From assembly GCA_003141195.1 (NCBI GenBank), contig PLLC01000108.1, forward strand, positions 1 to 60,115: a stretch of DNA of 60,115 bases. The letters run 5' to 3'. The first letter of the stretch is position 1, and the number at the start of each line of letters is the position of its first letter. The stretch is from Syntrophaceae bacterium. GTDB lineage: Bacteria; Desulfobacterota; Syntrophia; Syntrophales; UBA5619. The position numbers were made by a program, and so were the translations under genes. Shown here one piece after another: positions 38,473-42,303 of the stretch. The notes under the pieces were generated by a model, which was not told where the DNA came from, made no database searches, and saw only the letters and a list, made by a program, of their open reading frames with translations.

Positions 38473-38536
38473 GAATCCTCGCATGCAGGAGATTTCCGAA
38501 GATCCGGAATTCCGTCGTTTATTTTGTTGTTTGTCC

Positions 38537-38565
38537 TTGACTGAATATGGCCATTTATGTATATT
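38537..38565 (+). promoter_or_regulatory. Promoter for the HTH-brxA-fic unit
   Basis: TTGACT at 38537-38542, a 17 bp spacer, TATATT at 38560-38565. The surrounding 150 bases are clearly more AT-rich than the flanks. Confidence 0.65.
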
Positions 38566-38662
38566 TCTATCCGGTATCGTTGGTGTTCGTAGGCATCTGA
38601 CCGACCTGCCTGCCATGACACATTCGATACAGGGAGAACCTGGCTAAAAGGAATAAAATGAA

Positions 38663-38884
38663 ATGACTGCTGAAGAACGATGGGTTGGGGTCGAGGATGT
38701 CGCCAAGCATCTCGGCGTCAACAAGGACTCCGTGTATCGATGGATAGAGAAGATGGGTTTGCCGGCCCATCGTGTCGGACGGCTTTTCCGGTTCAAGATT
38801 TCGGAAGTCGACGAATGGGTCCGCGCTGGTGGAGTGAGTGAGGCGAGCGCTCCATCTTCTACGGAAAAGAAAACTGATGAATAG
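38663..38884 (+). CDS. Helix-turn-helix protein of the excisionase/MerR-like type
   Basis: Protein of 73 residues. The winged HTH spans about residues 6-55: VEDVAKHLGVNKDSVYRWIE, then LPAHRVGRLFRFKISEVDEWV. This is the DNA-binding excisionase family used by phage and island regulators and also found ahead of BREX operons. The start at 38663 follows AAAAGGAATAAAATGAA, a modest site. It overlaps the next gene by eight bases, so it probably regulates that unit. Confidence 0.88.
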   Translation: MTAEERWVGVEDVAKHLGVNKDSVYRWIEKMGLPAHRVGRLFRFKISEVDEWVRAGGVSEASAPSSTEKKTDE

Positions 38885-39728
38885 GCCAATTAGCAAGACA
38901 AACCCGTCTGAGAGAACTGCCGCTAAGGTCGAGAGCGACCTTCGAAGGAAGAGCGCGATCACCGCGGCACCGCCATACAGCAGCAAAATTATCAAGGCAG
39001 GAGCTCTTCTTCCTGACACAAAAGCGCTTCTGTCCGCATGGGACCCAGCATTGTCCGTCAGTGAAAATCTCCAACACGTGCATCGCCAGAACCTATTAGG
39101 TAAGACCTCACGGTCGCGGGCCGAGGATATCCTTGCGATTTTCCGGCAACGATATCTGGCTGAAGAAACCGTTGCTCGGGCTTTGGCGACCATTGTGAGA
39201 CGTCAGTCCAACGGTAACACCCTTGATCGGATTCTTTATTTCCACGCAGTGCGCGCCGACTCGCTCTTGCACGATGTAGTGATTGAGCTTCTGGCGCCAA
39301 ACTGGGCACGGGGCGCCATGGAAATAGATGCCCTGGAAATTGAGTCGGCATTGATAAAATGGGTTGAGGAAGGGAAGACTTCAGGCACCTGGGGTGATTC
39401 TACTGTACGACGGGTCACACAAGGAGTGCTCTCAACCCTCCGCGATTTCGGCGTCCTGCAAGGCGTAGTCAACAAACGTATCGCTCCAGCCTACTTGTCC
39501 GTACAAGCTTTTGCTTACATCGCTTTTTACTTGAGACAGCACCAACCTTCGGGAACCAAACTGCTTGACCTGGTTGATTGGAAGCTGTTCTTCCTGCCCC
39601 ATGAGGGAGTGGAGCGGTTTTTTCTGGAAGCGCATCAGCATGGACTGCTTGAGTACCACGTTGCGGGCAGCGTCACTCGCTTGACGTTTCCTGGAGGCCG
39701 CGGCATTGTCCGAGGTCTGGGTGCGTGA
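38877..39728 (+). CDS. brxA: DUF1819 protein BrxA (BREX component), C-terminus probably replaced
   Basis: Protein of 283 residues from the ATG at 38877. The DUF1819/BrxA pattern is clear: [73 protein letters not shown] and [15 protein letters not shown]. BrxA is a small DNA-binding member of BREX phage-defence systems. Near 39690 the expected end (hydrophobic strand, then SLEE-type helix) gives way after LTFP to [11 protein letters not shown], which is the fic sequence read in another frame. No brxB, brxC, pglX, pglZ or brxL is nearby. I see this as the 5-prime relic of a BREX operon; family call is confident, activity is not. Confidence 0.75.
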
Positions 39729-40656
39729 GATGGGCCGCCGCGCTTTGATGCTGGAAGCCCATCACACCACGCACATCGAGGGATCGCGCCTGACCCTGGA
39801 GCAGGCCGAGCGATTGTTGGAGGGGAACCCGGTTCCCGAGGCCGACCCCGACGACGTGCGGGAGCTGTTGAACTACAGGAAGGCGTTCGAGTTCGTCTCC
39901 GAGTACCTCGAAGGCGGTGGCCCGATCACCGAGGGGCTGGTCCGGGAAATCCACAAACGGCTGGTGGAAGGTGTCCGGGGCGGGTCCGCGGCTCCGGGCG
40001 AGTACCGGAAAATCCAGAACTACGTGGTGAACTCCGTCACCGGCGAGACGGTTTACACGCCGCCCCCGGCGCACGATGTCCCGATCATGATGGCGGAGCT
40101 GGTGGACTGGCTCAACCGCGAACAGGAGGTTCATCCCGTGCTGGTGAGCGGCATCTCCCAGTTCCAGTTCGTGCATGTCCACCCGTTCCTGGACGGCAAC
40201 GGCCGGTCGTCCCGGCTACTCTCCACCCTGTGCCTCTATCGGGCAGGATACGACTTCAAGCGGCTGTTCACGATCAGCGAGTACTACGACCGGAACCGGC
40301 CCTCCTTCTACCGGGCCATTCAGAGCGTCCGCGAGAACGGAATGGACATGACCGGTTGGCTGGAGTTCTTCGTTGAAGGACTGACCACCCAGCTTGCAGA
40401 GGTCAGGGAGCGCGGGGAGCAGGCCATCCGCCGGGATGTGCTCATCAAGGAACACGGCCTTTCGGATCGCCAGACCAAGGCCCTCGGACACATCTTGGAA
40501 CACGGCAGCCTGACCATCCAGGAATTCGAGCATTTCTTTCCCGAGGTCAACCGCCGGTCTCTGCAGCGCGACCTGAAGGCCATGGTGGATATGGGGCTGT
40601 TGGTTTCAGAGGGGGCGACCAACAAGCTCGTTTACCGGATGAAAAAGACGGGGTGA
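39706..40656 (+). CDS. Fic-domain AMP transferase-like protein, probably 5-prime truncated
   Basis: Protein of 316 residues from a TTG at 39706, which has GGAGG eight bases upstream; an ATG at 39730 is possible. The Fic core has the complete active site [12 protein letters not shown] near residue 158. The N-terminal TTHIEG fits the class II inhibitory motif (S/T)xxxE(G/N). The C-terminus is a winged helix ([16 protein letters not shown]...[11 protein letters not shown]). The frame is closed by a TGA at 39682-39684, so residues usually present before SEVWVREMG appear lost at the junction with brxA. Known Fic proteins of this type modify target proteins with AMP. It overlaps brxA by 23 bases. 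Confidence 0.85.
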
Positions 40657-40657
40657 A

Positions 40658-40712
40658 CTTGCGACAATCTTGCGACACAACTTACGACAAGCTCACGACT
40701 CGACTTGCGACA
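40658..40712 (+). repeat. Five iteron-like direct repeats of CTTGCGACA, period 11-12 bp
   Basis: Copies begin at 40658, 40669, 40681, 40692 and 40704, spaced 11, 12, 11 and 12 bases. Three are exact CTTGCGACA, one is CTTACGACA and one is CTCACGACT. The regular helical phasing suggests a protein-binding array. It starts two bases after the fic stop. Confidence 0.8.
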
Positions 40713-40857
40713 TCCACATTGAGTAGAGTAGTTGGGAAATCGAGATTGACGCCGCTTCCGGTTCATCGGGAACTGCTCGCTCTTTGATAACTCATTGAAT
40801 ATCGAAGGCTTATAGGTTGACGACCGGATGGAGAATGGTTATGAAGAGGGTTGCACT

Positions 40858-40873
40858 CGGGGAGCCAGACATT
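40858..40873. other. Candidate degenerate attR matching the tRNA-Asn 3-prime end
   Basis: GGGGAGCCA here repeats the last nine bases of the tRNA (37328-37336), and both are followed within a few bases by an ATTC. The match is short and could be chance. If real, it would mark the right end of the island inserted at tRNA-Asn. Confidence 0.25.
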
Positions 40874-40875
40874 CG

Positions 40876-40908
40876 GGGCTGCAAACCATTCGGTTTTGCA
40901 GCCCTTTT
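40876..40908 (+). terminator. Rho-independent terminator at the island's right edge
   Basis: GGGCTGCAAACC (40876-40887) pairs with GGTTTTGCAGCCC (40892-40904) with one bulged T, loop ATTC, followed by TTTTC. It would end rightward transcription from the fic side before the thiolase gene. Confidence 0.7.
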
Positions 40909-41052
40909 CATATTCACTTTTAGAAGGTTCCGTATCACGCGGGAAACGTCCGGAAGGCCTTCCCGACCCCCGGAACCACTTGTTTGCAAGAATCGTTCGT
41001 GAAGAGACGATGGTCGTTTCTTCAACCGCACACCATATCAGGAGGGAACATC

Positions 41053-42303
41053 ATGAAAGATTGCGTAATCGTATCGGCCTGCCGGACCGCCGTCGGCGCC
41101 TTCGGCGGAACGCTCCGGGACCTCAACTGCGCTTCACTCGGCAGCGTCGTCATGAAGGAGGCCGTGAAGCGGGCCGGGATCGACGCCGGGCTCATCGACG
41201 ACGTCCGCTTCGGCTGCTGCATGGAGCCGGTGGACGCCCTGAACGTCACCCGGGTCGCCGCCCTGATGGCGGGCATTCCGGAGACCGTCACGGCGGTCAC
41301 GGTGAACCGGGTCTGCATCTCCGGGATGGAGGCCGTCGTCTCCGGCATGGCGATGATCCAGGCTGGCATGGCGGATATCATCCTCGCCGGCGGGATGGAG
41401 CACATGTCGGGGATCGCCTATTCCGTCCCCGCGGCCCGGTGGGGCTGCCGATTCCAGGACCAGGTCTTCGTGGACGACATCGTCCACGGCCTCCATGCGG
41501 GGTCGCACCTCCTCCCCGGTCTGGAGAAAGGCCCGGTGAAGGAGGGCGGCGTCGTCGAGCTTTTCCGGGGAAAGCCTTACATCATGGGGGTCACCGCCGA
41601 GCTTATCGCCCAGATGTACAACCTCAGCCGGGAGGAGATCGACGCGGTCGCCCTGCGTAGCCACAACAACGCCGAGAGGGCCACCCAGGACGGGGATTTC
41701 CGGGAGGAGATTGTTCCCGTGGAGATCCCCCAGCGGAAAGGAAAACCGCCCTTGATCTTTTCGAAAGACGAACATTTCCGCCCCGGTTTGACGGCAGCCG
41801 ACCTCGCGGTCCTTCCCGCCGCATTCGTTCCCAAAACCGGCAAGGTCACGGCGGGGAACTCCTCCGGCGTGAACGACGGGGCGAGCGCCATAATCATCAT
41901 GTCCGCCGAAAAGGCGAAGGAGTTGGGGCTGAAACCCCTCGCCCGGATCAGGGCGATCGGCCGCGGCGGCTGTCATCCTTCCGTCATGGGGCTGAGCCCC
42001 GTCCCGTCCGTCCGGAACCTTCTCCAGAGGTCCGGTCTCAAGCTCGCCGACTTCGAACTGATCGAGGTGAACGAGGCCTTCGCCGCCCAGTATTTGGGCT
42101 GTGAGCGGGAGCTGGGCCTCAACCGCGAGATCGTCAACGTCAACGGCTCAGGCGTCGGTCTCGGCCACCCCGTCGGTTCCACGGGTTGCCGGATCATGGT
42201 CACCCTCCTCCATGCGATGAAGAAACGGGGGAAGACCCTCGGCATGGCGACGCTCTGCGGCGGCGGCGGCGTATCGCTGGCCACCATCCTGGAGATGTGC
42301 TGA
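41053..42303 (+). CDS. Thiolase (acetyl-CoA acetyltransferase family)
   Basis: Condenses or cleaves acyl-CoA thioesters, 416 residues from the ATG at 41053 after AGGAGGGAACATC. The nucleophilic cysteine lies in NRVCISGMEAV near residue 88; the usual motif is VCGSG, so one glycine is isoleucine. Other motifs are AGGMEHMS, NSSGVNDGAS, VNEAFAAQYL and GLGHPVGSTGCR. The last catalytic loop is LCGGGGVS with its cysteine. The gene stands alone, so role in beta-oxidation or acetoacetyl-CoA synthesis is open. Confidence 0.93.
   Translation: MKDCVIVSACRTAVGAFGGTLRDLNCASLGSVVMKEAVKRAGIDAGLIDDVRFGCCMEPVDALNVTRVAALMAGIPETVTAVTVNRVCISGMEAVVSGMAMIQAGMADIILAGGMEHMSGIAYSVPAARWGCRFQDQVFVDDIVHGLHAGSHLLPGLEKGPVKEGGVVELFRGKPYIMGVTAELIAQMYNLSREEIDAVALRSHNNAERATQDGDFREEIVPVEIPQRKGKPPLIFSKDEHFRPGLTAADLAVLPAAFVPKTGKVTAGNSSGVNDGASAIIIMSAEKAKELGLKPLARIRAIGRGGCHPSVMGLSPVPSVRNLLQRSGLKLADFELIEVNEAFAAQYLGCERELGLNREIVNVNGSGVGLGHPVGSTGCRIMVTLLHAMKKRGKTLGMATLCGGGGVSLATILEMC

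Follow-up and report, generated by a model that had tools for sequence, protein, structure and literature searches.

Fic proteins that carry a C-terminal winged helix are common, and some of them defend against phages. CccR of Yersinia pseudotuberculosis is reported to use its C-terminal domain to repress the promoter from which it is expressed, and its operator is a single 10-bp inverted repeat with a 26-bp spacer within that promoter (PMC9755527). For CbFic2 of Coxiella burnetii, DNA binding via the winged helix is reported to lead to dimerization and deAMPylation; random DNA was used in those experiments, the specific DNA site was stated to be unknown, and the authors suggest that CccR, too, may do no harm when bound to its own promoter (PMC10628234). 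Here we describe a fic gene in a contig of 60,115 nucleotides from a Syntrophaceae bacterium (PLLC01000108.1, assembly GCA_003141195.1), the whole of which is referred to as the window, together with a tandem array of short repeats that directly follows this gene. Judging from sequence, the array is likely to be the DNA that this Fic protein, encoded immediately upstream, specifically recognizes, and winged helix and array are likely to form a specificity cassette serving local self-control. The Fic repressor CccR and the DNA-binding CbFic2 are precedents, but without 3' direct-repeat arrays. In the literature within our reach, which excluded most subscription journals, we found no description of direct-repeat arrays adjacent to genes for Fic proteins.

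The Fic Protein and the Array in the Window

The fic open reading frame (ORF) is located at positions 39706–40656 of the forward strand, as are the array and the BrxA-family ORF described below, and from its TTG start as listed encodes 316 residues of a class II Fic protein with a C-terminal winged helix. The gene is 5'-truncated: about the first 30 codons have been lost, homology to relatives begins at 39688, and an in-frame stop is present at 39682–39684. It was the sole match in its own genome at E 1e-30 when the Fic protein was used as query. The Fic motif HPFx[D/E]GN[G/K]R is present as HPFLDGNGR and, apart from the x positions, is invariant across 49 aligned homologues. The inhibitory motif of class II Fic proteins, (S/T)xxxE(G/N), is found N-terminally as TTHIEG (residues 21–26), of which T22, E25 and G26 are invariant in the alignment. 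The window Fic is a putative SoFic-like class II AMP-transferase. It matched the PADLOC SoFic model PDLC03963 (E 1.3e-63, residues 14–310, model positions 57–350 of 361) but fell below the NCBIfam SoFic equivalog cut-off of 550 bits, scoring 70.1 bits, with 72.2 bits for the intact relative L076.

An AlphaFold model of the window Fic had a mean predicted local distance difference test score of 91.3 and placed a winged helix-turn-helix (HTH) with the order H-E-H-H-E-E at residues 254–312 (codons 40465–40641), a feature shared with CccR-type autoregulated Fics. Within this domain the putative recognition helix, assigned from the secondary structure of the model, spans residues 283–295 (40552–40590), and the wing hairpin spans residues 299–312 (40600–40641) with GATN in its loop. 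Structural matches over the full length of the model were 4rgl, 3zcn (SoFic), 7xux (CccR) and 8cil (CbFic2). CbFic2 showed the same architecture (Z 25.7, root-mean-square deviation 4.1 over 294 residues), and CccR matched over nearly its whole length (Z 25.7, deviation 10.7, 292 residues). CccR resembles the window Fic in being a class II Fic with a C-terminal HTH that, in CccR, binds DNA beside its own gene (PMC9755527). The two loci differ in the DNA itself, as the CccR inverted repeat lies in the promoter whereas in the window the gene is followed by repeats of a single orientation with 11/12-bp steps. An inverted-repeat operator in its own promoter was not found for the window fic, whose own 5' end is missing.

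The array occupies positions 40658–40712, beginning one base past the TGA stop codon of fic (40654–40656), and consists of five co-oriented units of the CTTGCGACA type that start at 40658, 40669, 40681, 40692 and 40704. The first, second and fifth units (40658–40666, 40669–40677 and 40704–40712) are exactly CTTGCGACA, the third (40681–40689) is CTTACGACA with one mismatch, and the fourth (40692–40700) is CTCACGACT with three. A sequence-only reading of the window had reported five copies with an alternating 11/12-bp period after fic, and both the coordinates and the steps of 11, 12, 11 and 12 bp held up. Tandem Repeats Finder gave the array the top score of its 26 rows for the window (72, period 23), and none of 200 dinucleotide shuffles of the 100 bp after the fic stop reached its 23-bp self-similarity. 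By contrast, single units with at most one mismatch occurred in the window at chance level (12 versus a shuffle mean of 11.1). The unusual feature is the phased cluster, not the single units.

The DNA helix has about 10.5 bp per turn, and steps of 11 and 12 bp turn successive sites by about 17 and 51 degrees. The sites therefore wind slowly around the helix without a common face, contrary to the proposal of the same reading that they lie on nearly one face. The genome of the window contains the exact unit pair a single time, and 60 other related genomes do not contain it. A promoter and terminator scan of positions 40560–41060 found neither, and positions 38500–41100 had no Rfam match up to E 1.

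Recurrence of the Array beside fic

Genome contigs were scanned for exact matches to the pattern CTTGCGACAN{2,3}CTTGCGACA. This identified at least 116 loci, compared with about 15 expected by chance (a rough estimate from the collection size). In 51 of the 116 matches listed, tblastn with the window Fic located a Fic homologue no more than 150 bp from the array, and in all 51 the array and fic were on the same strand. The array followed fic in 45 of these loci, preceded it in five, and was found on both sides in one (L064). Many of the other 65 listed loci resemble chance or coding matches. The sequence-only reading had proposed a search for the array and its nearest gene, with the lack of a conserved neighbor counting against it; the array is conserved beside a gene, and that gene is fic. 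The contigs with both included some labelled Acidobacteria, Planctomycetota, Nitrospirae, Bacteroidota, Elusimicrobia, Bdellovibrionales, Gammaproteobacteria and a Methanosarcinales archaeon, and the combination was also found in five viral contigs.

Loci were also retrieved by protein similarity. The window Fic was used to search 395 genomes of the phylum, of which 109 matched, and further genomes and viral contigs were added; loci with a 3' end identical to an earlier one were left out (L119, L120, L121, L126 and most of one added set), and L209 was lost as it had too little downstream sequence. An array within 100 bp after the stop codon, at p<=0.01, was detected in 18 of 26 homologues with 48% identity or more and in nine of ten members of a clade of 30–38% identity with a KGR-type wing, compared with one of 39 other Fics in total (0/7, 0/5 and 1/27 in three groups). 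Upstream p values for L140, L157 and L210 are artefacts of too little sequence. By loose unit patterns, 21 of the 23 close homologues that came from the 395-genome search had clade-type units; in the other two, L139 and L140, the C terminus is incomplete, through truncation or because the homologue is a fragment. The units differ by clade and include CTTGCGACA, TTTGCGACA, ATYGCGACA, GCTRTGACA, RGGACA, GGTTGGCGATTA and others.

The geometry of the array was conserved in a set of 43 arrays of the TN/TS wing class, none of which was reversed. Counted from the first stop-codon base, the first unit began at a distance of exactly four bases in 22 arrays. Step lengths were 11 bp (65 times), 12 bp (55 times), 10 bp (once) and 13 bp (once), with a first step of 11 bp in 37 arrays. 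The alternation was also maintained, as consecutive steps were 11-12 in 49 cases, 12-11 in 18, 11-11 in nine, 12-12 in one and other combinations in two.

Covariation of the Array Unit with the Fic Wing

The wing loop of the window Fic, GATN, belongs to a position in the protein that covaries with the array unit. The array unit followed the wing in 36 of 36 DPT and TN rows (the tie, L014, was dropped). Wings of the form GxTH occurred with TTTGCGACA (T) in 3/3 cases and those of the form GxTN or GxTS with CTTGCGACA (C) in 47/47 (Fisher 5e-5); when only protein-found loci were considered the corresponding counts were 3/3 and 4/4. In a tree built from the catalytic core, with the winged helix removed, the wing classes of 49 rows required 18 changes versus a shuffled mean of 20.0, that is, they are scattered near-randomly over the tree (L032, L059, L136 and L137 were left out as the helix pattern was not found in them). 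Over all branches there were seven independent pairs. L124 and L125 share 93.7%, and L049 and L131 share 86.0%, of the 300 nucleotides from the Fic motif, and in both comparisons the wing or whole winged helix differs and so does the array. Close cores with a different wing and array are what a jointly exchanged specificity cassette predicts.

These associations suggest a covariation code in which GxTN pairs with CTTGCGACA, GxTH with TTTGCGACA and DPT with GCTRTGACA. Because the array sequence changes along with the DNA-binding end of the protein, the array is probably the docking site of Fic itself. The suggestion in the sequence-only reading that the C-terminal winged helix might bind the phased array is likely to be correct. 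The HTH protein encoded from 38663, which the same reading had named as another possible binder, is not implicated, because arrays recur beside fic without such a gene as a shared neighbor.

Proposed Function of the Array and Alternative Explanations

Binding of Fic to the array, its multimerization there and an effect on its activity are what we infer from the computed recurrence, position, orientation, spacing, wing covariation and promoter geometry. Several Fic copies would bind as neighbors along the array, whose 9-bp units share one orientation and number about two per 23 bp, and exchange of the DNA-binding end of Fic would bring with it an exchange of the array. Docking would provide local self-control of a potentially toxic enzyme. 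A promoter-placed array, as in some Gammaproteobacteria and in a second clade with another unit, would repress fic directly, and an array after the stop codon, as in the window, would most likely titrate and multimerize Fic at its own gene and set its activity. Multimerization by the array may moderate the expression of Fic, its activity, or both. If the array is the site of Fic, it would offer ready-made cognate DNA for many winged-helix Fics along with a wing-unit covariation code, and make it possible to test directly if a specific DNA site switches Fic between toxic and harmless states.

Several observations weigh against the proposal that the array is the cognate site of Fic. Eight of the 26 close homologues missed the p<=0.01 threshold, and L140, one of the 18 that reached it, is a fragment with an unrelated repeat. 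Mixed units were present in two of nine DPT loci, L014 (a tie) and L084 (three to two). The concordant independent pairs on well-supported branches, although all concordant, were only four in number (p 0.125). Most TN rows were retrieved with the CTTGCGACA pattern itself, which leaves only the DPT, TH, SAR and KG rows, together with the loci retrieved by protein, unaffected by this bias. Many of the loci, including most of those found with the pattern beside fic, are contigs of metagenome-assembled genomes, so single taxon labels may be wrong. The 3' position of the array is unsuited to simple repression. In addition, no downstream direct-repeat array was present in 30 examined loci of better SoFic-model matches. 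Lastly, EcSofic is reported to require dimerization for its toxicity, which is opposite to the CbFic2 model (PMC12249575).

The alternative that survives best is that the array is a plain transcriptional operator, on which Fic regulates transcription only, at its own promoter or as a 3' roadblock or terminator aid, with no effect on enzyme activity. We consider this quite possible, though we do not favor it. The unit forms the -35 box, 16–18 bp from the -10 box, in six of the eight promoter-placed arrays: in the gammaproteobacterial L005, L077, L079 and L083 there is a 17-bp spacer to the predicted -10, and in L173 and L178, from another clade with ACTTGACT units, the spacer is 17–18 bp (L060 and L174 are without this geometry). 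The autorepression of CccR is a precedent for such an operator. However, promoter-like geometry was found in just one of 47 downstream arrays, which makes the upstream placement operator-like and the downstream placement not, and the downstream arrays have no common downstream gene to act upon.

A more far-reaching idea, which we regard as doubtful, is that the DNA is an antidote: the array would gather Fic and hold it in a dimeric, deAMPylating or otherwise harmless state, and loss or degradation of the array, through plasmid loss or phage attack on host DNA, would poison the cell. Were this true, arrays that outlive a decayed fic (e.g., L251, L254 and L272) would represent immunity. Part of the effect of the small downstream "antitoxin" ORF at Sofic might then also stem from its DNA. 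In EcSofic, that ORF is reported to encode 47 residues and to counteract the toxin, although soluble preparations of AS1 or of a complex were not obtained (PMC12249575).

The array could also be the end or attachment site of a mobile element that carries fic, to which the winged helix would be incidental. The spread of fic and array over many phyla and the five viral contigs is compatible with mobility, as is the arrangement in Desulfobacterota, where the array adjoins a noncoding stretch of about 170 nucleotides that has a sharp end and is preceded by varying upstream genes. Nevertheless, we judge this explanation to be unlikely, as the unit sequence covaries with the Fic wing, the promoter arrays are operator-like, no recombinase recurs within 2.5 kb of fic, and the noncoding stretch was not seen outside Desulfobacterota. 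It is very unlikely that the 3' array works as RNA, in an untranslated part of the fic transcript that might serve, for instance, as an antitoxin: it does lie directly past the stop in a constant orientation, but units with 11/12 spacing also occur in promoters, overlapping the -35 box, and they covary with a DNA-binding wing. Iterons for plasmid or phage replication, or a centromere-like site, are highly improbable despite direct repeats of about one helical turn, since no initiator or partition gene is present in the island or recurs beside fic.

In plasmid iterons and in lambda O/ori, too, a DNA-binding domain stays with the repeats that it recognizes, and the two are exchanged jointly. The window locus differs from these in having no replication gene, and no initiator was found beside its repeats.

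Neighboring Genes and the Fate of the Locus

Positions 38663–39728 of the window contain a mad1-like HTH ORF followed by a BrxA-family ORF (38838–39728) whose 3' end overlaps the fic remnant, joined to it at the point where the fic start was lost. The mad1-like ORF had a PADLOC E value of 9.8e-12 but scored below the NCBIfam MAD1 cut-off, and the BrxA-family ORF had an E value of 1.3e-32. From these matches the two ORFs and the fic remnant appear to be pieces of a defense island. The sequence-only reading had considered the array a possible site for a replication initiator or transposase, which we rejected: the three island ORFs match the HTH_17/mad1, BrxA and Fic families, and no such gene recurs beside fic. 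Within 2.5 kb, no neighbor gene recurred in more than three of 58 fic loci, and among ORFs of at least 60 residues no partner antitoxin common to more than three of them was found.

As the window fic is 5'-truncated, the local array may be a relic, like the arrays of other decayed loci; several of these retain just the last codons of fic and the array. Arrays without a detectable fic were present in L003, L061, L075, L094, L098, L101, L007, L089, L251, L254 and L272. Some sit where relatives keep fic, with a TPR-like gene upstream in L101, L007 and L089 as in L125 and L139, and the arrays in L101, L007 and L089 are a mix of GCTGTGACA and CTTGCGACA units.

The conserved noncoding stretch of about 170 nucleotides found 3' of the array in Desulfobacterota, at 40736–40867 in the window, lies at a fixed distance, with 132–133 bp from the last array unit to GGTTATGAAGAGGGTTGCA in most loci having both. 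It was present in A1, L007, L018, L025, L051, L055, L057, L076, L089, L101, L124 and L244–L273, including loci without fic, and beyond its sharp end the sequence is unrelated and often hairpin-like. Its core pattern, with at most one mismatch, matched 33 of 390 genomes of the phylum, some of these matches being unrelated coding sequence, and the reversed-pattern control gave none among the matches listed. Evidence for RNA structure in this stretch was weak (covariation term -0.23 of -13.5 kcal/mol).

Repeats near SoFic and AlbA_2 Genes

True SoFic-model matches were found in 62 of 299 genomes. Strong inverted repeats were present before the gene in 9/30 SoFic loci, after it in 7/30 and inside it, as a control, in 3/30, as judged by 60 composition shuffles each, and terminators may be among these repeats. 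The SoFic-family genes L281, L284, L294, L295, L297, L298 and L302 are followed by such a strong repeat no more than 120 bp past the stop codon. A search of E. coli with the SoFic gene from L284 found nothing.

Arrays of about 12 bp scoring at least 18 were found in eight of 30 loci of AlbA_2 genes; identical scoring gave two of 30 for SoFic loci. The AlbA_2 (Schlafen-like) genes L221, L228, L238 and L242 have in-frame 12-bp repeats near their 3' (C-terminal) end; L221 is in the window's own genome (C11:107858 onward) and repeats KTTQ. In L085, two CTTGCGACATTT arrays immediately precede an AlbA_2-like ORF. A weak match to the SoFic model (E 5e-4) was obtained for the winged helix of L221, and together with the AlbA_2 arrays this hints that the pairing of a winged helix with a local array extends beyond Fic.
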